The notes under the pieces are model-generated. The model had not been told where the DNA came from, searched no databases, and saw only the letters and a program-made list of their open reading frames with translations. Shown in pieces: positions 2,322-39,479 of a stretch of 59,503 bases of DNA. Position 1 is the first letter of the stretch. Each line of letters starts with the position of its first letter. The DNA is taken from contig CALWKK010000003.1 in assembly GCA_944381245.1 (NCBI GenBank), positions 1-59,503 on the forward strand, given 5' to 3'. This DNA is from an uncultured Clostridia bacterium. GTDB taxonomy: Bacteria; Bacillota; Clostridia; Christensenellales; UBA1242. The position numbers were made by a program, and so were the translations under genes.

Positions 2322-5300
2322 ATGAAAAAAGAAAGTACGGTTCCAAACTTAGTAAAAAACGAAGAAGAAATATTAAAATTTTGGGAAAGCAACAAAATAT
2401 TTGAAAAATTAAAAAATAAAAACAAAAAAACAGGTAAATATTATGCCTTTTTAGATGGTCCTATAACAGCAAATAATGAAATGAAATTGCATCACTGTTG
2501 GAATAGATCGTTAAAAGATATAATGTTAAGATATAAAGCATTAAATGGTTTTGATGCCCACTATCAAAATGGTTTTGATGCTCAAGGATTATGGGTTGAA
2601 GTTGGAGTTGAAAAAGAACTTGGCTTAAAAGACAAAAGAGATATCATAAAATTTGGGATGGATAAATTTACAGAGACTTGCATTGAAAGAGTAAATAAGT
2701 ATGCAACAATTATAACTCAACAATCTAAAAGATTGGGACAATGGATGGATTGGGATAATTCTTATTTCACTAATTCTGATAAAAATATAACAACTATTTG
2801 GTATTTTTTAAAAAAATGTCATGAAAAAGGTTGGTTAATAGAAAAATATAGACCTATGCCTTGGTGTTCACACTGTGGAACTTCTTTATCTGAACATGAA
2901 CTTGCTGATAGTTATCAAGATATGGAACATAGAGCAGTTTTCTTTAAATTACCTATTATAGATTCAAATTTGGATATTTTAGTTTGGACAACAACTCCTT
3001 GGACTTTATCTTCAAATGTTGCTTTAGCAGTCAATCCAAATTTAGATTATTGTGTTTGTAAAGTAAAGTCTAGTGATAGGAAAATTATTGTTGGGAAGCA
3101 ATCTGTTAATGTACTCAAAAATGATTTAATAGAAATAGAAAAAGAAATAAAAGGACAAGAGTTAGTTGATAAGAAATATCAAACTTGTTTTGAAGAGTTA
3201 AGCCAACAAAATTTTGAACATAAAATTGTTGCTTGGGAAGATGTTGATTCTGTTGAAGGCTCTGGAGTTGTTCATATTGCACCAGGATGTGGAGCAGAAG
3301 ATTTTGAGTTAGGACAAAAATTAGGGTTGCCAAATATTTGTCCTGTTGATGAAAATGGAGTGTTTTATTCAGATTTCGGATTTTTAGCTAATAAAGAAGC
3401 AGATTCTGTATCAGATCTAGTTTTTAGTGAATTAGAAAAAAGAAATAAATTATATTACACTCATTTGTATAAACATAGATATCCTATTTGTTGGAGATGT
3501 AAAAAGCCTCTTATTTTCAGATTAACTAAAGAATGGTATATAAGTGCTGAAGAAATAAGACCAAAATTAATTGAAGCAATAAAAACAGTAAAATGGCAAC
3601 CAAGTTATTTGGAAAAAAGAATGTTAGATTGGTTGAATAATATGGGAGATTGGAATATATCTCGTAAAAGATTTTATGGACTACCTTTGCCATTTTATAA
3701 ATGTGAAGAATGTGGAAAATTGACAGTTGTTGGTAGTTTGGAAGATTTAAAAGAATATTCATCTTCAAAAGAAGTTGAAAGTATACCTCATCTTCATAGA
3801 CCATATATTGATAATATTATCATAACATGCCCTAAATGTGGGGCAAAAGTAAAAAGAGTTGCCGAAGTTGGTGACTGTTGGTTAGATGCAGGTATAACTC
3901 CTTTTAGCACAAAAAAATATTTTGAAGATAAAGAATTTTGGAATAAAAATTTTCCTGCTGAGTGTGTTATTGAAATGAAAGAACAAATAAGATTGTGGTT
4001 CTATTCATTATTATTTATGGCAGTTACATTAGAAAATAAAGCTCCATACAAAAAAGTCATTGGATTTGCTATGTTAGTTGCAGAAGATGGATCTAAATTT
4101 TCAAAATCTGGTCCAAATAATATTAACTTTAATGATTTAGTTAACAAGACTGGTGCAGATGTAATTAGGTATATATTTGCATCAAACAATATGTTAAATG
4201 ATACAAGGTTTGGATTTGGAATAACAGATGATGTAAAAAGAAAATTATTGGGATTTTGGAACGCATATGTCTTTTTCAATACTTATGCAAACATTGACAA
4301 TCCAGATATAGCTCATTATATACCAAATATTGAAGAATTAGATATAACAGATAAATGGTTGATTGAAGAATGTAATAAATTTATTGAAAATTCAACTGAA
4401 TATTATGAAACAAACAAATATTACTTGATAGTAAAAGATTTTGAAAACTTTATAGAAAATTTGACTAATTGGTATATTAGAGTAAATAGACGAAGATTTT
4501 GGAAATCTGATGACACTGAAGATAAGATGAATGCTTATTGGAGTTTGTACAATGCATTAAAAATCATAACTCAAGTTATGAGTCCTATCATTCCATTCTT
4601 ATCAGAATACATTTGGCAGAATATGATTAGAGATATAGAAAAAGAATCAGAAGAGAGTGTTTTTTTAGCAGGATTTCCTAATGTAAATGAAATTCGTTTT
4701 ACTAATTTAGATAATGAAACAAAATATGTTAGAGATATTATTGCAATTGCACAGAGATTAAGGAATGAAAATCAAATTAAGATAAAACAACCATTAAAAA
4801 CTATGTTTTTAAATGTAAGTGATGAAGTGTTTAATGCAGTTACTAAATTTGAAAATATTATTAAAGACGAATTAAATATAAAACAAATAGTTCGAGAGAA
4901 TGATAATACAAAATTTAATGAAGAATATTTAAGCGTTAATTTTAAGACAGCAGGGATAGTTTTAAAAGGAGATGTACAAAAATTAAAAAATGAGTTGCTT
5001 GAATTAACAAATGAAGAAATGAAAGATGTTGTTAATCAATATAAAAAAGGTAAAATTTCATTTAAGTCTTTTAATCAATTGGATAGTGAATTGTTTGTTT
5101 TGTGTTTTAAAGCAAAAGAAGAATATGTAATTTCAACTGAAAATGATATAACAGTTGTTTTAGATATTACTATTGATAAAGATTTAATGTTAGAGGGACT
5201 TCTAAGAGAGTTGATAAGGTCTATTCAAGTTTTAAGAAAAGAAGCAGGATTCAAAGTTGAAGATAGAATAATTGTTGGCTTAAAAAATTCAAGCGAATTA

Positions 5301-17917: not shown

Positions 17918-18880
17918 ATGAGTGAAAAAGAAAATATAAATTCTATTTTTATGAAAATATTACCTGAAAAAATTTTTAATGCAGCAATAAAAAATATTAA
18001 TTATAAACAGTTAAATGAATTAAGATTAAGAGCTGGAAAACCGATTGTTGTTATTTTAGGTAATCAGTATTATTTTGTTTCAGAAAAAGGTATAACCCAA
18101 AATATTGATGAATCGATAATTTGCACTCAATGTGACATTGATAATATAATTTTTAGGGCAAGTGAATGTTCAATATATGCAGTAAATGAACAAATTAAGC
18201 AAGGATTTATTACTATTAACTCTGGTATTAGAATTGGAATTGCAGGAACAGGAGTTTGTGAAGGGGAGCAAATTAAAACGATAAAAAATTTTACATCTTT
18301 AGTTATAAGAATTCCTCATAACATTAAGAATTGTAGTTTATTAGCTTTAAAATATTTATTTGAAAAAGGAGAATTTAAAAACACTTTAATTGTTTCACCA
18401 CCAGGTTCTGGTAAAACAACTTTTATAAGAGATTTTATTAATCAATTATCTGAAAGAAACATATCTTTAAATATTTTATTATTAGATGAAAGGGGAGAAA
18501 TTTCTCCATTTTGTGATGGCGAAAACAATTTAGTTGTAAGTAATTTTTGTGATGTTCTTTCATTTATAAATAAACCACAAGGATTTTTAATTGGAATAAG
18601 ATCATTATCTCCATCAATAATAGTGTGTGATGAAATAGGAGCTAATGATGATATTTTAGCTATCGAATATGCTGGATATTGTGGAGTTGGAGTTATGGCA
18701 ACAGCTCATGCCGGATCAATTAATGAACTTAAAAACAAACCTAACTTTAAATCTTTATTTGATAAAAAATTATTTAAAAGATTTATTGTTTTATCTTCAA
18801 GATTAGGTCCTGGAACATTTGAGGGAATATATGATGAAAATTTCGTTCCTATAAAATTAGCAGACATTGATTATAGTTGA
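17918..18880 (+). CDS. spoIIIAA: Stage III sporulation protein AA (ATPase)
   Basis: SpoIIIAA is the cytoplasmic secretion-type ATPase of the SpoIIIA-SpoIIQ channel that links mother cell and forespore. The 320-residue protein has Walker A PPGSGKTTFIRD (near residue 161), a Walker B-type LLLDERGEIS and the CDEIGANDD motif. It is the first gene of a complete AA-AH operon. The ATG at 17918 lacks a ribosome binding site: a TATTTT sequence ends 6 nt before it, so it may be leaderless, although a sporulation-specific promoter could not be identified. Confidence 0.95.
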   Translation: MSEKENINSIFMKILPEKIFNAAIKNINYKQLNELRLRAGKPIVVILGNQYYFVSEKGITQNIDESIICTQCDIDNIIFRASECSIYAVNEQIKQGFITINSGIRIGIAGTGVCEGEQIKTIKNFTSLVIRIPHNIKNCSLLALKYLFEKGEFKNTLIVSPPGSGKTTFIRDFINQLSERNISLNILLLDERGEISPFCDGENNLVVSNFCDVLSFINKPQGFLIGIRSLSPSIIVCDEIGANDDILAIEYAGYCGVGVMATAHAGSINELKNKPNFKSLFDKKLFKRFIVLSSRLGPGTFEGIYDENFVPIKLADIDYS

Positions 18881-18887
18881 GGTTGTT

Positions 18888-19385
18888 ATGAAAATTATAT
18901 TAATTTTAATTGTCGTTATTAGTATGACTTATATTGGATTTGGAATTTTACAATATTATATAAAAAGAAAAAAAATTTTTGAAGATATAATTTTGCTTTG
19001 CGAGAAATTGTGTGTTGAAATTAGTTTTTCTAAAAATACTTTATCTTCAATAATTTCTTCAAATGTAAATTTATTTTCGAAAGATTTTAAAAACATAATT
19101 AGCACTTATTTAAATTATTTAAAAAATAATAATGAAGTTTTAACCAAAGATTTTCTTTTTAAAAAAAACACGTTGTTAAATGACGATGAAAAAGAATTAA
19201 TATTAAATTTTTTTTACAACTTAGGAAGATTAGATGCTAGCAATCAAATTAGTCAAATTAATGATTATAAAAATAAATTTATAGAACTAAAACAAAAAAC
19301 AAACGAAGAAAATTCAAAATTCGGTTCTTTGTCTTTAAAGCTTTTAATATTAATGGGGTTATTAATTGGAATTATTTTAATTTAA
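18888..19385 (+). CDS. spoIIIAB: Stage III sporulation protein AB
   Basis: A membrane protein of the SpoIIIA channel with distant similarity to type II secretion GspF-like proteins. An N-terminal membrane helix (MKIILILIVVISMTYIGFGI) and a C-terminal one (LSLKLLILMGLLIGIILI) flank a helical cytoplasmic region with the conserved segment CEKLCVEISFS. The start is placed at the ATG at 18888, preceded by TGAGG with 5-nt spacing. An in-frame TTG upstream overlaps spoIIIAA and is less likely. Confidence 0.88.
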   Translation: MKIILILIVVISMTYIGFGILQYYIKRKKIFEDIILLCEKLCVEISFSKNTLSSIISSNVNLFSKDFKNIISTYLNYLKNNNEVLTKDFLFKKNTLLNDDEKELILNFFYNLGRLDASNQISQINDYKNKFIELKQKTNEENSKFGSLSLKLLILMGLLIGIILI

Positions 19386-19396
19386 AGGAGGATTTG

Positions 19397-19591
19397 ATGG
19401 GAGTTGAAATTATTTTTAAAATAGCCGCAGTTGGAATTATAACAGCTGTTGTTAATCAAGTTTTAAAACATTCTAATAAAGAAGAAATCGCAACTTTAAC
19501 AACGCTAGCAGGTCTTATCGTTGTTCTTTTAATGGTTTTAAATTTAATTAATACATTGTTTGATACAGTTAGAACAATGTTTAATCTTTGA
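19397..19591 (+). CDS. spoIIIAC: Stage III sporulation protein AC
   Basis: A small membrane protein of 64 residues with two hydrophobic helices (IIFKIAAVGIITAVVNQVL and IATLTTLAGLIVVLLMVLNLI), the normal SpoIIIAC size and pattern. The start is ATG 19397, 5 nt after AGGAGG. An overlapping TTG at 19394 is too close to that site. Confidence 0.93.
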   Translation: MGVEIIFKIAAVGIITAVVNQVLKHSNKEEIATLTTLAGLIVVLLMVLNLINTLFDTVRTMFNL

Positions 19592-19603
19592 TGGAGTTAT
19601 AAA

Positions 19604-19987
19604 TTGGATATTTTTAAAATAATTGGAGTTGGTGTTATAACTGCTATTACTGCATTAATAGTCCGACAAATAAAGCCGGAAGTTTCTATTATTATTACAA
19701 TAACAGGAGGCGTTTTAATACTATTAATGCTTGTTGAATCATTGACAAGTATATTTTCAGTTTTTAATCAAATTATTGAAAAAAGTGGTTTAGAATCGGG
19801 ATTATTTACAACTATTTTAAAAATAGTTGGGATTGGATATATAACAGAATTTTCCGCAAATCTTTGTAATGATGCTGGAGTTAGTTCGATTGCAGATAAA
19901 ATTCTTCTTGGAGGTAAGATTATTATACTTGCTTTAGCTTTACCAATAGTAACTAATATATTGAACATAATTTCGGAGTTATTATGA
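19604..19987 (+). CDS. spoIIIAD: Stage III sporulation protein AD
   Basis: A membrane component of the SpoIIIA complex of 127 residues with four hydrophobic segments. The first, IFKIIGVGVITAITALIVRQ, resembles the SpoIIIAC first helix, as expected for this pair. It uses a TTG start with GGAG 7 nt upstream. Its stop overlaps the spoIIIAE start by 4 nt (ATGA). Confidence 0.92.
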   Translation: MDIFKIIGVGVITAITALIVRQIKPEVSIIITITGGVLILLMLVESLTSIFSVFNQIIEKSGLESGLFTTILKIVGIGYITEFSANLCNDAGVSSIADKILLGGKIIILALALPIVTNILNIISELL

Positions 19988-21228
19988 TTAAAAGCAAAGA
20001 TATATTTTTAAAATTTAATAAAAATTCTATAATAAAACTAATATTAATTTTTGCAGTCATATTGATCGTTGTATTATATCAGTTTTATCCTATTAGTATT
20101 TTAGTTATAGCAGAAGAAAACAATGAAATTTCTGAAATTGAGATAGAATTAAATGATCAAATAGAAACTCAACTAAATAAACTTAATTTTGGAGATATTG
20201 AAAAAATATTAAATAATTTAGATAATTATGAATATGAAATTTTTGGAAACAATTCTTTTTCAGGGAAAATTCAAAATATAATATCAGGCAAATTTGCTGA
20301 TGGGCAAACTTCCATATTTAGCGCTATTATTAATTTAATATTCGATGATATTTTAAAATATATTCCGATACTCGCATCAATTATAATTATATCAATAATT
20401 TGTGGATTGATTTCTAATATAAGAAGCGAAACTAATTCAAAATCAGTTGGAGATATTATACATTTTGTTTGTTATGGAGTGATAATAGTTCTAGTAATGT
20501 CTGGAGTCACAAATTTGATAAAAGAATCTTCTGGAGCTATTCAATTAATAAAATCACAAATGGAAATTATTTTTCCAATATTGTTAACATTAATGACAGC
20601 AATAGGAAGCACAGCTTCTGTTTCAGTATATCAACCTGCTGTTGCATTTTTATCAAGCTTTATAACTCAAGTATTTACTTCTGTGTTAATGCCTATATTT
20701 ATTTTTATATTAGTTTTTACAATTGTTTCAAATTTAACATCAACAGTAAAGCTTGATAAATTTACTAAATTTTTTAGCTCAGCATATAAATGGATTCTTG
20801 GAGTTGTTTTTACAATATTTATGGCTTTTTTATCTATACAAGGAATAACTGCAAGTAGTTATGATGGTGTGTCAATAAGGACAGCAAAATATGCAATAAA
20901 ATCTTATATTCCATTATTAGGTGGATATTTATCAGAAGGATTTGATGTTATAATGGCTTCTAGCGTACTTATAAAAAATGCTGTTGGTGCAAGTGGATTA
21001 ATTTTAATGTTTGCAAGTATAGCTTCACCTATTATTCAAATAGCTGTATTTTCATTAATATTAAAATTAGCATCCGCAATATTGGAGCCTTTAACAGACA
21101 GTAGAATATCAGAATTTATATATACAACAGGTAAAACGTTAACGCTGTTAGTAACAATGATAATAGGAATAGCTTTTATGTATTTGATAACGGTTGGACT
21201 TATAATGTGTACAGCAAATTATTTATAA
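19984..21228 (+). CDS. spoIIIAE: Stage III sporulation protein AE
   Basis: A polytopic membrane protein of 414 residues and the largest membrane subunit of the SpoIIIA channel. An N-terminal hydrophobic segment (signal-like) is followed by an acidic extracytoplasmic region (about residues 35-110) and about eight membrane helices. The conserved segments QPAVAFLSSFITQVF and GISFLSIQGITASSYDGVS-like region (AFLSIQGITASSYDGVS) support the call. It is coupled to spoIIIAD by a 4-nt overlap. Confidence 0.93.
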   Translation: MIKSKDIFLKFNKNSIIKLILIFAVILIVVLYQFYPISILVIAEENNEISEIEIELNDQIETQLNKLNFGDIEKILNNLDNYEYEIFGNNSFSGKIQNIISGKFADGQTSIFSAIINLIFDDILKYIPILASIIIISIICGLISNIRSETNSKSVGDIIHFVCYGVIIVLVMSGVTNLIKESSGAIQLIKSQMEIIFPILLTLMTAIGSTASVSVYQPAVAFLSSFITQVFTSVLMPIFIFILVFTIVSNLTSTVKLDKFTKFFSSAYKWILGVVFTIFMAFLSIQGITASSYDGVSIRTAKYAIKSYIPLLGGYLSEGFDVIMASSVLIKNAVGASGLILMFASIASPIIQIAVFSLILKLASAILEPLTDSRISEFIYTTGKTLTLLVTMIIGIAFMYLITVGLIMCTANYL

Positions 21229-21236
21229 GGAGTTTT

Positions 21237-21722
21237 ATGTCAAACATATCAAGTTGGATTTTAGCAGTTGCAGGAATTTGTATTTTGGGAGTTTTAATAG
21301 ATTTAATAATGCCTAATGGACAAACTAAAAAATATATTAAAGGTGTATTTGCCTTTTTTGTTGTTTTAATCATTATTTCTCCTTTACCTAATTTACTAAA
21401 AAAAGAATTTTCAATTAATGATATATTTGAAGAAGATGCTATTATTATACAAGAAGATTTTATATTCCAAATAAACAGAGATAGATTAGAAACAATTGAA
21501 AATATGATAAAAGCAGATTTACATGAGCAAGGAATTGATAATGTTGGCATAATTATTAATGCAAATGTGTTTGTTGAAAAAATGAAAATAGAAACTGTTT
21601 TTGTCGATTTATCTGAGGTAGTAATTAATCAAGATTTAGAGCATATAGATATTAATGAACTTGTTTTGAAAAGCATTTTAAAATATGTTGTTATTGAGGA
21701 GAAAAATATAATTTTCAATTAA
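21237..21722 (+). CDS. spoIIIAF: Stage III sporulation protein AF
   Basis: A 161-residue protein with two N-terminal membrane helices (SSWILAVAGICILGVLIDLIM and IKGVFAFFVVLIIISPL) and a soluble C-terminal domain, the SpoIIIAF layout. The soluble domain is thought to adopt the ring-building fold shared with SpoIIIAG/AH. The start is ATG 21237, directly after AAGGAGTTTT. An upstream in-frame start inside spoIIIAE lacks a binding site. Confidence 0.9.
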   Translation: MSNISSWILAVAGICILGVLIDLIMPNGQTKKYIKGVFAFFVVLIIISPLPNLLKKEFSINDIFEEDAIIIQEDFIFQINRDRLETIENMIKADLHEQGIDNVGIIINANVFVEKMKIETVFVDLSEVVINQDLEHIDINELVLKSILKYVVIEEKNIIFN

Positions 21723-21723
21723 A

Positions 21724-22302
21724 ATGTTAAACAAGGATGACGTGGAGGAAAGGGTGGAAGAAAAAAAGCAAAAGAAAGGACTTTTTGAAAATCTAAAATT
21801 ATTTCAAAAACTAAAAAGCATAAAACATATTGAAATAATAATTGCTGTTATTTTCGGAGCTATAATACTTTTAATTTATCTTTCAACCTTAAATAAAAAT
21901 GATTCACAATTATCCTATCAAACAACCTCAGTTTCAGAATATGCAACAATGCTTGAAACAAAACTTGAAAAAGTTATCAAACAAATAGATGGAGTGGGAA
22001 ATGTTTCAGTTATGATAACTATAATAAGCGGACCAGAATATGTTTATGCAACTAATGATGAAGAAAAAATTAATGTAAATGAAGGAAATGGATCTACAAC
22101 AACATCGACTACGATAACAAAAGAACCGATAATAATTTCAAATGATATGGTTGTCATACAAGAAATTATGCCCAAAATAGGTGGAGTGGTTGTTGTTGCT
22201 GGAGGAGCAGAGGATACAAAAGTTAAACTTGAAATCATCAAAACGGTGCAAGCGTTATTAGATGTTCCTCAAGGAAATATTGAAGTTATAATTGGAAAAT
22301 AA
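21724..22302 (+). CDS. spoIIIAG: Stage III sporulation protein AG
   Basis: A ring-forming, single-pass membrane protein of the SpoIIIA-SpoIIQ channel. A charged N-terminus precedes one membrane helix (HIEIIIAVIFGAIILLIYL, about residues 37-56) and a ring-building domain with EKVIKQIDGVGNVSVMITI and GGVVVVAGGAEDTKVKLEI, both typical. A Thr/Ser-rich insertion (TTTSTTITK) forms the variable beta-insert. The start could be ATG 21724 or the in-frame GTG at 21754, which has GGAGG 5 nt upstream. Confidence 0.93.
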   Translation: MLNKDDVEERVEEKKQKKGLFENLKLFQKLKSIKHIEIIIAVIFGAIILLIYLSTLNKNDSQLSYQTTSVSEYATMLETKLEKVIKQIDGVGNVSVMITIISGPEYVYATNDEEKINVNEGNGSTTTSTTITKEPIIISNDMVVIQEIMPKIGGVVVVAGGAEDTKVKLEIIKTVQALLDVPQGNIEVIIGK

Positions 22303-22315
22303 AAGGAGATTAAAC

Positions 22316-22792
22316 ATGTTTAGTAAAAGAAAAAAAATAATAATTTTATCAGTTATGGTTGCTCTTTTAGTTGTCACTGGATATCTTAACATTGCATTAA
22401 ATAACAATGTTTCTCAACCCGTTTCAACAATTGCAAATTTAAATTTTTATGAATCTTATAGAGCAGATAGAGAAACTTCAAGAGAAAGTGCGATACTTTA
22501 TTATGAGGGTATTATAAATGATTCAACTAGTAGTCAAGAAGCAAAAGATATGGCAGAAGCAAGCAGGCAAGAATTAATTGACGCTCTCGAAAAAGAATTA
22601 ATAATTGAAGGATTAATTAGAGGAATAGGTTTCGAAGATGCTGTTTTAACAACAACAAGTGATAATATAAATGTAATAGTTAAAGCTAAAGCTGAAGAAA
22701 TAACTGAAGCCCAACTTGCTCAAATTTCTACTATCGTTCAAGAGCAAACTCAAAAGTCATTAGATAATATTAGAGTTATTTGTTCAGATTAA
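22316..22792 (+). CDS. spoIIIAH: Stage III sporulation protein AH
   Basis: SpoIIIAH spans the mother-cell membrane and pairs with SpoIIQ. The 158-residue protein has one N-terminal helix (KKIIILSVMVALLVVTGYLNIAL), then the conserved YRADRETSRESAILYYEGIINDSTSS region and the EKELIIEGLIRGIGFEDAVL ring-building domain. The start is ATG 22316 after AAGGAG. It is the last gene of the operon and is followed by a terminator. Confidence 0.95.
   Translation: MFSKRKKIIILSVMVALLVVTGYLNIALNNNVSQPVSTIANLNFYESYRADRETSRESAILYYEGIINDSTSSQEAKDMAEASRQELIDALEKELIIEGLIRGIGFEDAVLTTTSDNINVIVKAKAEEITEAQLAQISTIVQEQTQKSLDNIRVICSD

Positions 22793-23644: not shown

Positions 23645-23646
<2 letters not shown>
23612..23646 (+). 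terminator. Bidirectional terminator
   Basis: A perfect 16-bp hairpin centred on GATATCAC-TTA-GTGATATC with A-tract and T-tract flanks, between two convergent genes. Confidence 0.9.
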
Positions 23647-24937
<1,291 letters not shown>

Positions 24938-36916: not shown

Positions 36917-37159
36917 ATGGATAAAAATAATGAAGAAATGGTAAGGAACACATGTGATAATCAAAATAAACAAATGAAATATAGTAAAGAAACAACAATA
37001 GGCGAAGTGTTAAACGACAGTCCAGAAAACAAAGCTATTTTGGAAGGATTCGGCTTACATTGCTTTGGTTGTCCAATGAGTCAAATGGAAACATTGGAAG
37101 AAGCAAGTATTAATCATGATATAGATTTAGATTATATGCTAGAAAAATTAAACAAATAG
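36917..37159 (+). CDS. DUF1858 domain protein (redox-disulfide type)
   Basis: An 80-residue protein with a disordered N-terminus and a DUF1858 domain: TTIGEVLNDSPENKAILEGFGLHCFGCPMSQMETLEEAS. The Cx2C pair (CFGC) suggests a redox or metal-related role; relatives occur near hybrid-cluster proteins, but none is adjacent here. AAAGGAG precedes the start and a strong terminator follows, so it is monocistronic. Function unknown. Confidence 0.85.
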   Translation: MDKNNEEMVRNTCDNQNKQMKYSKETTIGEVLNDSPENKAILEGFGLHCFGCPMSQMETLEEASINHDIDLDYMLEKLNK

Positions 37160-37370: not shown

Positions 37371-37399
37371 TTGCATTTTTTTCTGTTATATAATATAAT
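37371..37399 (+). promoter_or_regulatory. SigA promoter of the OLE RNA
   Basis: TTGCAT, a 17-bp spacer and TATAAT (37394-37399), with a second overlapping TATAAT at 37389. The predicted start is about 37406, where the RNA's 5' closing stem begins. Confidence 0.8.
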
Positions 37400-37405
37400 A
37401 TTAAT

Positions 37406-38018
37406 GGAGACGCAGTATTCTAGTCAAATAGATTTACCCGGAAGACGTTAAAGGCGTTAAATGGCATATCTGTGAAGTTTCTGGTGTTGGCTTTGGTTGC
37501 CCAAACTGGGGCTTATGCTGGAAGTTAAGAATTATGGGAGTGTTATAATGGCATATAATATCAACCCATTTTTCGTGGAGACCTAAACTTGGTGAATTTA
37601 TTGAAATTTACTATTTAGGTAGAACCTGCATTGCGGTAAAAAAAATTGCTGTGTGCAGTGTAGCCAGCCTTGAGTGAAACTGTTGGGATAAAACTAATAT
37701 TATATTTGAAATGGCCAACAAATTTAATATGTTAAAGTTTTTGAAATTCATTTTGCAAAATAGGATAAGGGTAAAAATCATTTGTTTGAGAAATTCTCTA
37801 GACTGTTCACTTTTGTAGTGTTTTGTTTCGGGGATTATAGTGTGGTCTTAGTGGCGATTCGGTGATGTCTGTTTAGTAAATGGAAACAGCTTGTTCGGCG
37901 ACGACAAGTTAAACAGCGGGAAATCCAACCGAACCTATGCTGCAAGGTTTACTCGAAGCATTGTCTCTAATTAAAGAAGAAGAGTATTATCATTACATAT
38001 ATATCTCTTCTTTTTTAT
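37406..38018 (+). ncRNA. ole: OLE RNA (ornate, large, extremophilic RNA)
   Basis: A roughly 610-nt region with no convincing reading frame but clearly higher GC and many local inverted repeats, bounded by a strong promoter and a terminator. Its 5' end GGAGAC (37406-37411) can pair with GTCTCT (37963-37968), closing the molecule. OLE RNA is a membrane-associated noncoding RNA of about this size, encoded just upstream of the membrane protein OapA and often near argR, recN or isoprenoid genes. Here a protein read as OapA begins 38 nt after the terminator and argR comes next. In alkaliphilic bacilli the OLE complex has been linked to alcohol, cold and magnesium stress. The call rests mainly on size, boundaries and partner; I could not align it to the Rfam model. 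Confidence 0.85.
37973..38018 (+). terminator. Terminator of the OLE RNA
   Basis: A 12-bp stem (37973-37984 with 38005-38016; one G-U) ending in a T-tract, 4 nt after the closing stem of the RNA. Confidence 0.75.
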
Positions 38019-38047
38019 TTGTGATAAATTAAAAAAAATGCTATAAA
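38019..38047 (+). promoter_or_regulatory. Promoter of oapA
   Basis: TTGTGA, a 17-bp spacer and TATAAA, ending 8 nt before the ATG of oapA. No ribosome binding site lies between, so the message would have little or no leader. The -35 abuts the OLE terminator T-tract. Confidence 0.5.
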
Positions 38048-38055
38048 TATATATT

Positions 38056-38724
38056 ATGAAAGATAATGAAAAAGAAAACGAAATTTATTCTTCTTTAGAA
38101 GAATCTAATCTTGAAAATTTAAATTTAAAAAAAAATGATTTAAAGAAAAATGATTTAAAAAATATAACAAACAAAGCAACAAAAAAGAAAACTCAAAAAT
38201 GGTGGATTTGGCCAATTAAAATTTTAGTTATAACTTTGTTTTTATCTCTTTCATTCAGTGTTTTAAGTGAGTTGTTATTAACTAATGTTGGAATCATAGT
38301 TTCAATATTTATTATTTTGTTTTTATTAATTATAGGTATAATTACTGATATGATAGGGGTTGCGACAACAGCTTGTCAAATTGAACCTTTTGCAGCAATG
38401 AGATCAAGAAAAGTCAAAGGAGCAAAGTTTGCAATGATTTTAGTTAAAAATGCAGAAAAAGTTTCAAGTATTTGTAATGATGTTGTAGGTGATATTTGTG
38501 GTATTTTATCTGGAGCAGCTGGTGCGTCTATAACTTTAAAATTTATTTCGGAAAATATGGGAGATTCTGTAAAAATTTTAATTGCTGGTGCAGTTAGTGC
38601 GCTTATTGCTGGCTTAACAATTTTTGGTAAAGCAATATGCAAAAAATATGCAATAGATAATTGTACTAAAATTGTTTTAGGTGTTGGAAAATGTTTCAGT
38701 ATATTTAACAAAAAGGATAAATAA
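38056..38724 (+). CDS. oapA: OLE-associated membrane protein OapA
   Basis: The 222-residue protein has a charged N-terminal extension (residues 1-48) with the repeat LKKND-LKKND, two membrane helices (about 53-74 and 78-103), a basic loop with EPFAAMRSRKVKGAKFAM, then the motif NDVVGDICG, whose D142 and D146 form the DxxxD motif important in OapA. Two further hydrophobic segments follow (about 147-163 and 172-192). OapA binds OLE RNA and anchors it at the membrane; the protein has remote similarity to CorC/CNNM-type magnesium transporters. The gene is directly downstream of the OLE RNA and followed by its own terminator. Confidence 0.88.
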   Translation: MKDNEKENEIYSSLEESNLENLNLKKNDLKKNDLKNITNKATKKKTQKWWIWPIKILVITLFLSLSFSVLSELLLTNVGIIVSIFIILFLLIIGIITDMIGVATTACQIEPFAAMRSRKVKGAKFAMILVKNAEKVSSICNDVVGDICGILSGAAGASITLKFISENMGDSVKILIAGAVSALIAGLTIFGKAICKKYAIDNCTKIVLGVGKCFSIFNKKDK

Positions 38725-39020: not shown

Positions 39021-39479
39021 ATGGCTCGTTCTGTTAGACAATCTAAAATTTTAGAATTAATATCAACTAAAGAGATAGAAACTCAAGATGAATTGGTTGA
39101 ATGTTTGCGTAATTCAAATTTTGAAATAACGCAAGCAACTATATCTAGAGATATTAAAGAGTTGGGATTAATAAAAATTTTAAGCGCCGAAACAGGTAAA
39201 TATAAATATTCTATTGTAGATTCTGGAGAGCAAGCCGTTTCAAATAAATACATATCAATTTTTAAAGAAGCTGTAATATCAATTAAATCAGCTCAGAATT
39301 TAGTTGTTTTAAAAACAATAAAATCAATGGCCAATTCTATATGTTCTTTAATAGATAAATTAAATTTAGATTCAGTATTAGGCGCTGTTGCAGGTGATGA
39401 CACAATAATGATAATATTACCAACAAATGATCAAGCTAATAAAGTGGCCCATACAATTGAAGATTTAATAAGAAAATAA
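39021..39479 (+). CDS. argR: Arginine repressor ArgR/AhrC
   Basis: An arginine-dependent transcription factor of 152 residues. The N-terminal winged helix includes RQSKILELISTKEIETQDELVECL and ITQATISRDIKELGLIKI, the DNA-binding signature. The C-terminal oligomerisation and arginine-binding domain contains GAVAGDDTIMIIL with the conserved GDD. GGAAGGAA precedes the start. It stands alone between its own promoter and terminator, downstream of oapA. Confidence 0.95.
   Translation: MARSVRQSKILELISTKEIETQDELVECLRNSNFEITQATISRDIKELGLIKILSAETGKYKYSIVDSGEQAVSNKYISIFKEAVISIKSAQNLVVLKTIKSMANSICSLIDKLNLDSVLGAVAGDDTIMIILPTNDQANKVAHTIEDLIRK

Follow-up and report, generated by a model that had tools for sequence, protein, structure and literature searches.

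Does the small genome of an uncultured Clostridia bacterium carry an OLE RNA that works with its protein partner OapA, and what do the relatives of this organism reveal about the parts of that partnership? The question is raised by a locus within a 59,503-nucleotide stretch of DNA, called the window below. OLE RNAs, which act at the cell membrane together with a partner protein, are among the largest conserved bacterial RNAs to which no biochemical function has been assigned. The original prediction for this locus, made from the letters of the sequence, proposed an OLE-type RNA with a strong promoter, pairing ends, a terminator and no open reading frame (ORF), lying directly upstream of an OapA-type gene in a spore-forming host. 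It further proposed that the host has a functional OLE complex, and that this RNA, GC-richer than its surroundings, is a useful example for covariation analysis.

Results

A full-length OLE RNA with its own predicted promoter

A scan of the whole window against Rfam yields seven matches, of which six are tRNAs and one is an OLE RNA (RF01071). The OLE match runs from end to end of the 616-position model and, at 345.4 bits, exceeds by far the gathering score of 50 for this family (Table 1), such that the locus is indeed of the OLE type. It is the single OLE match in the whole genome, and OLE RNAs are also present in all four of the other same-genus genomes searched.

The features expected at the two ends of the RNA are likewise present. 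Two TATAAT hexamers share one base (37389-37394 and 37394-37399), and a TTGCAT sequence beginning at 37371 sits 17 nucleotides upstream of the second. This promoter is missing from the list produced by our consensus scan because its -35 element matches TTGACA at only three of six positions. The three same-genus loci aligned in this region (L033, L035 and L036) carry TATAAT at the same position. Given that the promoter ends at 37399, transcription is predicted to start near 37406, which is the first base of the P1 5′ arm. No plus-strand ORF of 50 or more amino acids lies wholly within 37394-38055, where the one ORF is a 56-amino-acid frame on the minus strand. Beyond the RNA, the minimum-energy fold forms a terminator-like hairpin by pairing nucleotides 37972-37984 with 38005-38017; it is missing from the terminator scan list because that scan demands G-C pairs. 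The GC content of the two 300-nucleotide bins covering the RNA is 0.34-0.38, versus 0.17-0.30 in eight flanking bins, and the RNA folds more favorably than its shuffled versions (z -5.1; 0 of 20 shuffles as good).

Table 1. Positions of the OLE RNA, its helices and its neighboring genes in the window, and of the mini-OLE RNAs of genus g4.
Feature	Position	Strand	Basis or remark
Promoter TTGCAT, 17 nt, TATAAT (second of two)	37371..37399	+	Read from letters
OLE RNA, RF01071, full length (model 1-616)	37391..37983	+	345.4 bits, E 7.5e-98
P1 5′ arm GGAGAC	37406..37411	+	Pairs with 37963-37968
P2 5′ arm (CAGU + palindromic CUAG)	37413..37423	+	Pairs with 37798-37805
P3/P3.1 5′ arm, 14 bp, interdomain linker	37425..37439	+	Pairs with 37769-37784
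Domain 1 (P4 to P9)	37440..37768	+	Rfam structure line; helices 5-15 of count
P9-tip GGCC palindrome, published dimer kissing loop B3	37713..37716	+	PMC12286853
Domain 2, 3′ part (P10 onward)	37785..37968	+	Rfam structure line; helices 16-24 of count
GGCGAC loop, P13 region, published OapB site	37897..37902	+	Rfam alignment, letters checked
P1 3′ arm GUCUCU	37963..37968	+	Pairs with 37406-37411
Terminator-like hairpin, 13 bp, T-rich 3′ arm	37972..38017	+	Minimum-energy fold
oapA, 222 aa, four long predicted helices	38056..38724	+	DxxxD, AlphaFold2, Foldseek
OapA basic loop FAAMRSRKVKGAK	38389..38427	+	Between second and third long helices (AlphaFold2)
OapA DxxxD motif (DVVGD, residues 142-146)	38479..38493	+	D142, G145, D146 invariant
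argR, arginine repressor, next gene after oapA	39021..39479	+	Pfam, NCBIfam
Mini-OLE of genus g4, domain 2 alone	L073:1540-1793, L074:3115-3362	+	Loci read

Covariation and comparison with known OLE RNAs

To evaluate the secondary structure, 22 OLE RNAs from the same family were aligned with MAFFT on sequence alone, and pairs were counted for the Rfam structure together with three helices that we took from the sequence itself (P1, P2 and P3, the names P2 and P3/P3.1 being assigned in this analysis). Overall, 83.8% of 3,716 cells are paired, and in 110 of 177 pairs both partners have changed, as the expected value of this RNA for covariation analysis implied. When partners are slid by one to three columns, only 40-45% of cells remain paired, and shuffled controls are also far lower. 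The proposed pairing of the RNA ends is well founded: P1, whose columns are unpaired in the Rfam OLE model, is paired in 100% of cells, and four of its six pairs are doubly changed. P2, in or near which a published OapA site lies (PMC12265935), is also 100% paired in the 22 sequences.

Pairing is less complete in some regions. In P3, 13 of 14 pairs are doubly changed in at least one sequence, with 74.9% of cells paired in the MAFFT alignment, and the weakest helices of domain 1 are found in P9 (helix 14, 41.4%; helix 15, 49.1%). These low values in P3 and P9 may in part reflect misalignment of a fast-changing arm. The P9 tip is nevertheless self-complementary in 21 of the 22 RNAs (GGCC in 18, GCGC in 3), and the arm is absent from the remaining one. 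Kretsch et al. have described this loop as a kissing contact between RNA molecules, with switches from one palindrome to another (PMC12286853). In the window RNA itself, 128 of the 149 Rfam pairs are standard and 21 are non-canonical.

The window RNA follows the same model end to end as the full-length OLE RNAs represented by RF01071, such as those of H. halodurans and C. acetobutylicum, the latter studied by cryo-EM. It shares with them an oapA gene directly downstream, an OapB gene, the P13 loop and the P9 palindrome, and differs from them in a P7 loop six nucleotides shorter than the model, in a host where OapC is not found above cut-off and in a genome of only 0.94 Mb. Two variants have been described by Fernando and Breaker in 2024, namely variant 1 (TANB77), with a shorter P7-P9 region and a P13 end that is often missing, and variant 2 (RF39), in which P7 and P8 are absent (PMC11332333). 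Both variants likewise occur in reduced genomes known only from metagenomes. Because the window RNA retains P7, P8, P9 and the P13 loop, it is unlike variant 1 and is not variant 2, an assignment that we considered and rejected on finding both the P7 and P8 arms in the Rfam alignment.

The host and its protein partners

The host genome assembly spans 0.94 Mb and is 90% complete. The organism is, as proposed, a spore-former by gene content: SpoIVB is encoded in the window above its NCBIfam cut-off and SpoIVA elsewhere in the genome (E 8.1e-114), whereas SpoIIIAA and SigG, both in the window, score slightly under theirs. The eight named relatives recovered via OapA are uncultured Clostridia or Christensenella, and one of these, Christensenella sp. 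UBA1242, is placed by NCBI in Christensenellales.

Several other genes in the window were observed. A run of ORFs at 17918-22792 (+) reads like a spoIIIA operon, with the first scoring 247 bits to SpoIIIAA (cut-off 281) and the others named by eye. A 425-amino-acid collagen-like protein of GPTGPT repeats, which we take to resemble a spore-surface protein, is encoded at 23645-24922 (-). A small DUF1858/hybrid-cluster-protein-associated redox disulfide protein is encoded at 36917-37159 (+), just upstream of a tRNA-Ser gene and ole.

The start codon of the gene downstream of the RNA lies 72 nucleotides beyond the end of the Rfam match on the same strand, and its product justifies the OapA-type label. 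It carries the DxxxD motif that marks OapA proteins (PMC11332333), and residues invariant among 20 aligned OapAs include D98, D142, G145, D146, K192 and K196. An AlphaFold2 model (mean pLDDT 78.8) consists of four long helices, and its five high-probability Foldseek matches are all CNNM/CorC magnesium transporters, the best being 7m1t (E 4e-3, probability 1.00; none at E ≤0.001). The protein scores 17.2 bits against the Pfam CNNM model, under the cut-off of 28.4. Thus, OapA resembles the CNNM membrane domain of MpfA, CorC and CorB. MpfA also has CBS and CorC domains, whereas the 222-amino-acid OapA has no Pfam match to a CBS or CorC_HlyC domain.

A candidate OapB gene (L045:4914-5192, minus strand) lies between map and infA, both of which are above their NCBIfam cut-offs. 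Its product matches PDB entry 7k9b, ‘OLE-associated protein B’ (E 1.9e-5), with no match above cut-off to a Pfam or NCBIfam model that would name it. No L7Ae-like OapC was found above cut-off in the 90% complete host genome, where one sub-threshold match (E 0.08) falls in a frame that is ThiF-like by eye. OapB and OapC are carried by about 60% and 45% of OLE species, respectively (PMC11332333), and OapC is essential in H. halodurans (PMC9723947). Searches of the host genome for MpfA found PF03471 absent and no PF01595 match above cut-off. A 2025 review lists ArgR, whose gene follows oapA, as a partner of OLE on the basis of its authors' unpublished work (PMC12265935). The host may have a functional OLE complex, as originally proposed.

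OLE, OapA and MpfA across the family

A single draw of 247 genomes from the family was searched for OLE, OapA and MpfA (PF03471). OLE RNA is present in 84 genomes, representing 15 of 42 genera, and all 84 also encode OapA. MpfA is found in none of these 84 genomes, versus 59 of the 163 that lack OLE (Fisher p 4e-13, counting genomes as independent with no correction for relatedness). Five genera (g7, g9, g12, g59 and g64) include both genomes with OLE and genomes with MpfA, never with both together, and so the exclusion does not stem from one split. An anticorrelation of OLE and MpfA has already been published for Bacillota (PMC11332333), and our survey repeats it at close range.

OapA is also encoded by 75 genomes in which OLE was not detected, 14 of which have MpfA. 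Before counting, we dropped seven OapA matches that were weak (E 2e-8 to 7e-6); MpfA-positive genomes account for six of them, and G146 for the other. A simple link between OLE and sporulation within the family was rejected because SpoIVA occurs nearly everywhere (in 234 of 247 genomes overall, and in 158 of the 163 without OLE). We also observed that the usual gene order is reversed in G095, where ole follows oapA in the same orientation (L078:3209-3794 and 4225-4851, both minus strand).

A predicted mini-OLE RNA consisting of domain 2

Both genomes sampled from genus g4 (G007 and G071) contain one OLE match of only 217-218 nucleotides, in which most of the model is skipped. Reading of the loci reveals predicted RNAs of about 250 nucleotides that begin with the canonical 5′ end GGUGCAGUAUCCUAG, followed by a 7-bp stem with a four-base loop, the sequence GGAAAAC and the rest of domain 2. 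The loop that caps this P3 stem is ACCC in one genome and GUAA in the other. P4 to P9 are missing, and P1, P2 and everything from P10 onward are retained. This mini-OLE is not a contig-edge effect, as evident by the more than 1,500 nucleotides of sequence upstream in each locus. Other short matches were set aside on such grounds: G202 (5′ cut) and G054 (3′ cut) are truncated by contig edges, the G003 match ends 78 nucleotides from the end of a 3,850-nucleotide contig, and G967 (from contig base 170) and G762 (from base 6) of the class sample are likely edges.

The two mini-OLE RNAs are 71% identical in their domain 2 segment and keep the blocks that are conserved in full OLE RNAs. Their consensus fold, derived from these two sequences only, has 64 pairs, 14 of them doubly changed, and a 10-bp terminal helix. 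Compared with shuffled sequences, one folds with z -3.0 (1 of 200 as good) and the other with z -1.6 (13 of 200 as good). The G007 RNA is preceded by TTGATT-17-TATAAT. The OapA proteins of both genomes keep the basic loop; oapA is convergent to the mini-OLE in G007 and lies on another contig in G071. SpoIVA is absent from both genomes, which are 90% and 76% complete, with a joint probability of chance absence of about 2%.

In the OapA tree, the g4 proteins nest with that of G095 and then that of G009 (support 100/100 and 97/95), both of which have full-length OLE RNAs. It is therefore most likely that the mini-OLE arose by deletion of domain 1 from a full OLE. We presume that the lost domain includes the dimer loops, the k-turn, the bS21 site and the P4a OapA site. 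A DNA pattern for the mini-OLE, applied to 164 loci, matches both mini loci (four loci, two per genome) and nothing else; it had 0 matches in 396 genomes of the order, a set that holds neither G007 nor G071 and thus no positive control. In a class-wide search of 391 genomes, of which 151 have OLE, there is no further mini form among the matches listed. Because all of P4 to P9 is gone, the g4 RNA has lost more than variant 1 or 2 as described (PMC11332333), and it would be a new OLE variant.

Published OapA sites lie near P2 and P4a, and P3, typically 12 bp long, has been proposed to span the membrane, for which about 14 bp would be needed (PMC12265935). In the mini-OLE, P2 is kept, P4a is lost and P3 has about 7 bp. 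If the mini-OLE is functional, P2 together with domain 2 would be enough for OapA to be held, and the g4 lineage would not need a P3 that spans the membrane.

OapA proteins without detectable OLE RNA

The family search for OLE was strictly filtered and scored only a small number of candidates in each genome, and the possibility of missed RNAs was therefore addressed in two ways. In a scan of 12 neighborhoods at E values up to 1, no hidden OLE was found beside OapA genes of OLE-less genomes, nor at the OapA locus of G071 or the second OapA copy of G086. A below-threshold L20 leader was seen downstream of g59-type OapA genes (L112:2688-2814, L119:2644-2765 and L122:2637-2759), whose gene neighborhood is unlike that of ole-oapA.

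The second approach was to compare the proteins, which were read from 46 of the 75 OLE-less genomes with OapA. The D..GD residues are kept in all of them. The basic loop, scored as the pattern M-x-[AS]-[KR]-[KR], is present in 46 of 50 OLE-linked rows, which span the family and the order and include one gene twice, versus 1 of 45 OLE-less rows. It is present in none of seven second OapA copies from OLE genomes. One OLE-less case cut by a contig edge (G252, L154) was counted apart, and its loop is intact. The count leaves out L001, L013 and L079 (repeats of kept rows), L035 (partial) and L002-L009 (named copies, several score-identical to kept rows). OLE-less OapA loci with DxxxD and a missing or eroded loop are L111-L120, L123-L153 and L161-L164. 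The simplest reading of this distribution is that the basic loop would contact the RNA and does not persist in its absence.

On the OapA tree, taken as unrooted and with labels merged, the OLE-linked and OLE-less states change five times (four to six in bootstraps), of which two changes are forced by strongly supported branches. One loss is clear: three OapAs from OLE-less genomes of genus g27 nest next to that of G030, which is OLE-linked (100/99), and their loop is half-eroded. The g59-type OapAs (24 rows including second copies) form one long-branched clade, which may be an ancient paralog without any past association with OLE, and so their missing loop need not represent a loss. OLE-positive g59 genomes have a further OapA copy (L122, L155-L160), which lacks the basic loop and clusters with the OLE-less OapAs. 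An OLE relative too divergent for Rfam could still reside elsewhere in the OLE-less genomes. Among the papers listed by our literature searches, which covered mostly open-access main texts, there is no report of OapA without OLE or of OLE without domain 1.

Discussion

The window RNA is an ordinary full-length OLE RNA in a small genome, of a kind that is already known. We think it quite probable that this RNA is made from its own promoter, is held by OapA at the membrane and replaces the CBS/CorC domains of MpfA in metal transport. Under this mechanism, the RNA would be transcribed from the promoter upstream of oapA, its ends would pair to form P1, and P3 would join two domains, the first carrying a palindromic P9 loop that would pair two RNAs and the second the OapB site. 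OapA, as a four-helix membrane protein related to CNNM/CorC, would hold the RNA at the membrane through its basic loop. The RNA would then serve OapA as the CBS and CorC domains serve MpfA, by sensing or gating the transport of divalent metals, and would tie this transport to stress responses. The present analysis shows the identity of the RNA, its covarying structure, its gene partners, its lack of co-occurrence with MpfA in 247 family genomes and the near-complete absence of the basic loop from the OapAs examined where OLE is not found. We infer dimer formation, membrane location, metal transport by OapA and the stress function from published work in other species, and contact between the basic loop and the RNA is likewise a predicted element.

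Other explanations for the locus must be weighed against this mechanism. As the RNA lies so close to the start of oapA and has the same orientation, it could be a long 5′ leader that controls oapA in cis, rather than a free RNA in a membrane complex. This seems very unlikely, given that a terminator-like hairpin lies between the RNA and oapA, and that the RNA gene is downstream of oapA in G095, convergent to it in G007 and on another contig in G071. It is also very unlikely that the RNA is a relic, which can still be recognized but has lost its function as the genome shrinks. Among the matches listed for the class sample, its score falls close to the bottom, OapC was not found above cut-off, and the 21 broken Rfam pairs are in line with decay. 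However, compensatory changes run through the 22 relatives, the promoter and the terminal helix are intact, as are OapA and its basic loop, and every other same-genus genome searched retains OLE. We give almost no credence to a different large RNA family that resembles OLE (ROOL, GOLLD or an unnamed one), because the OLE model is matched over its full length so far above its gathering score, and no other large-RNA family is matched at gathering thresholds at this locus or elsewhere in the window. The free, OapA-held RNA thus remains our preferred reading.

For the family as a whole, we lean towards a joint reading in which genus g4 has a natural OLE RNA of domain 2 only, OapA and domain 2 would form the working core, and domain 1 would be an added regulatory part. 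The spanning of the membrane by a P3 dimer would then not be general. In the same reading, OapA lives without detectable OLE in at least two other lineages, where its basic loop is missing or eroded, which suggests that it has a job of its own. If so, this would oppose a suggestion in the literature, according to which neither OLE nor OapA may ever be present without the other.

A survey published in 2024 already found 2,822 OLE RNAs in Bacillota (PMC11332333), and therefore one more full-length copy changes little. The significance lies in the family, which amounts to a natural dissection: among relatives with genomes of about 1 Mb, some have the whole OLE RNA and some only half of it, others have OapA but no detectable OLE, and still others have MpfA instead. 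Domain 2 is not resolved in cryo-EM studies (PMC12265935), and an OLE RNA of 250 nucleotides would be easier than one of 600 for structural work on this domain. Three ideas also become directly testable in this family, namely that OapA holds the RNA with its basic loop, that domain 2 is the core half of the RNA, and that the RNA stands in for the regulatory domains of MpfA.
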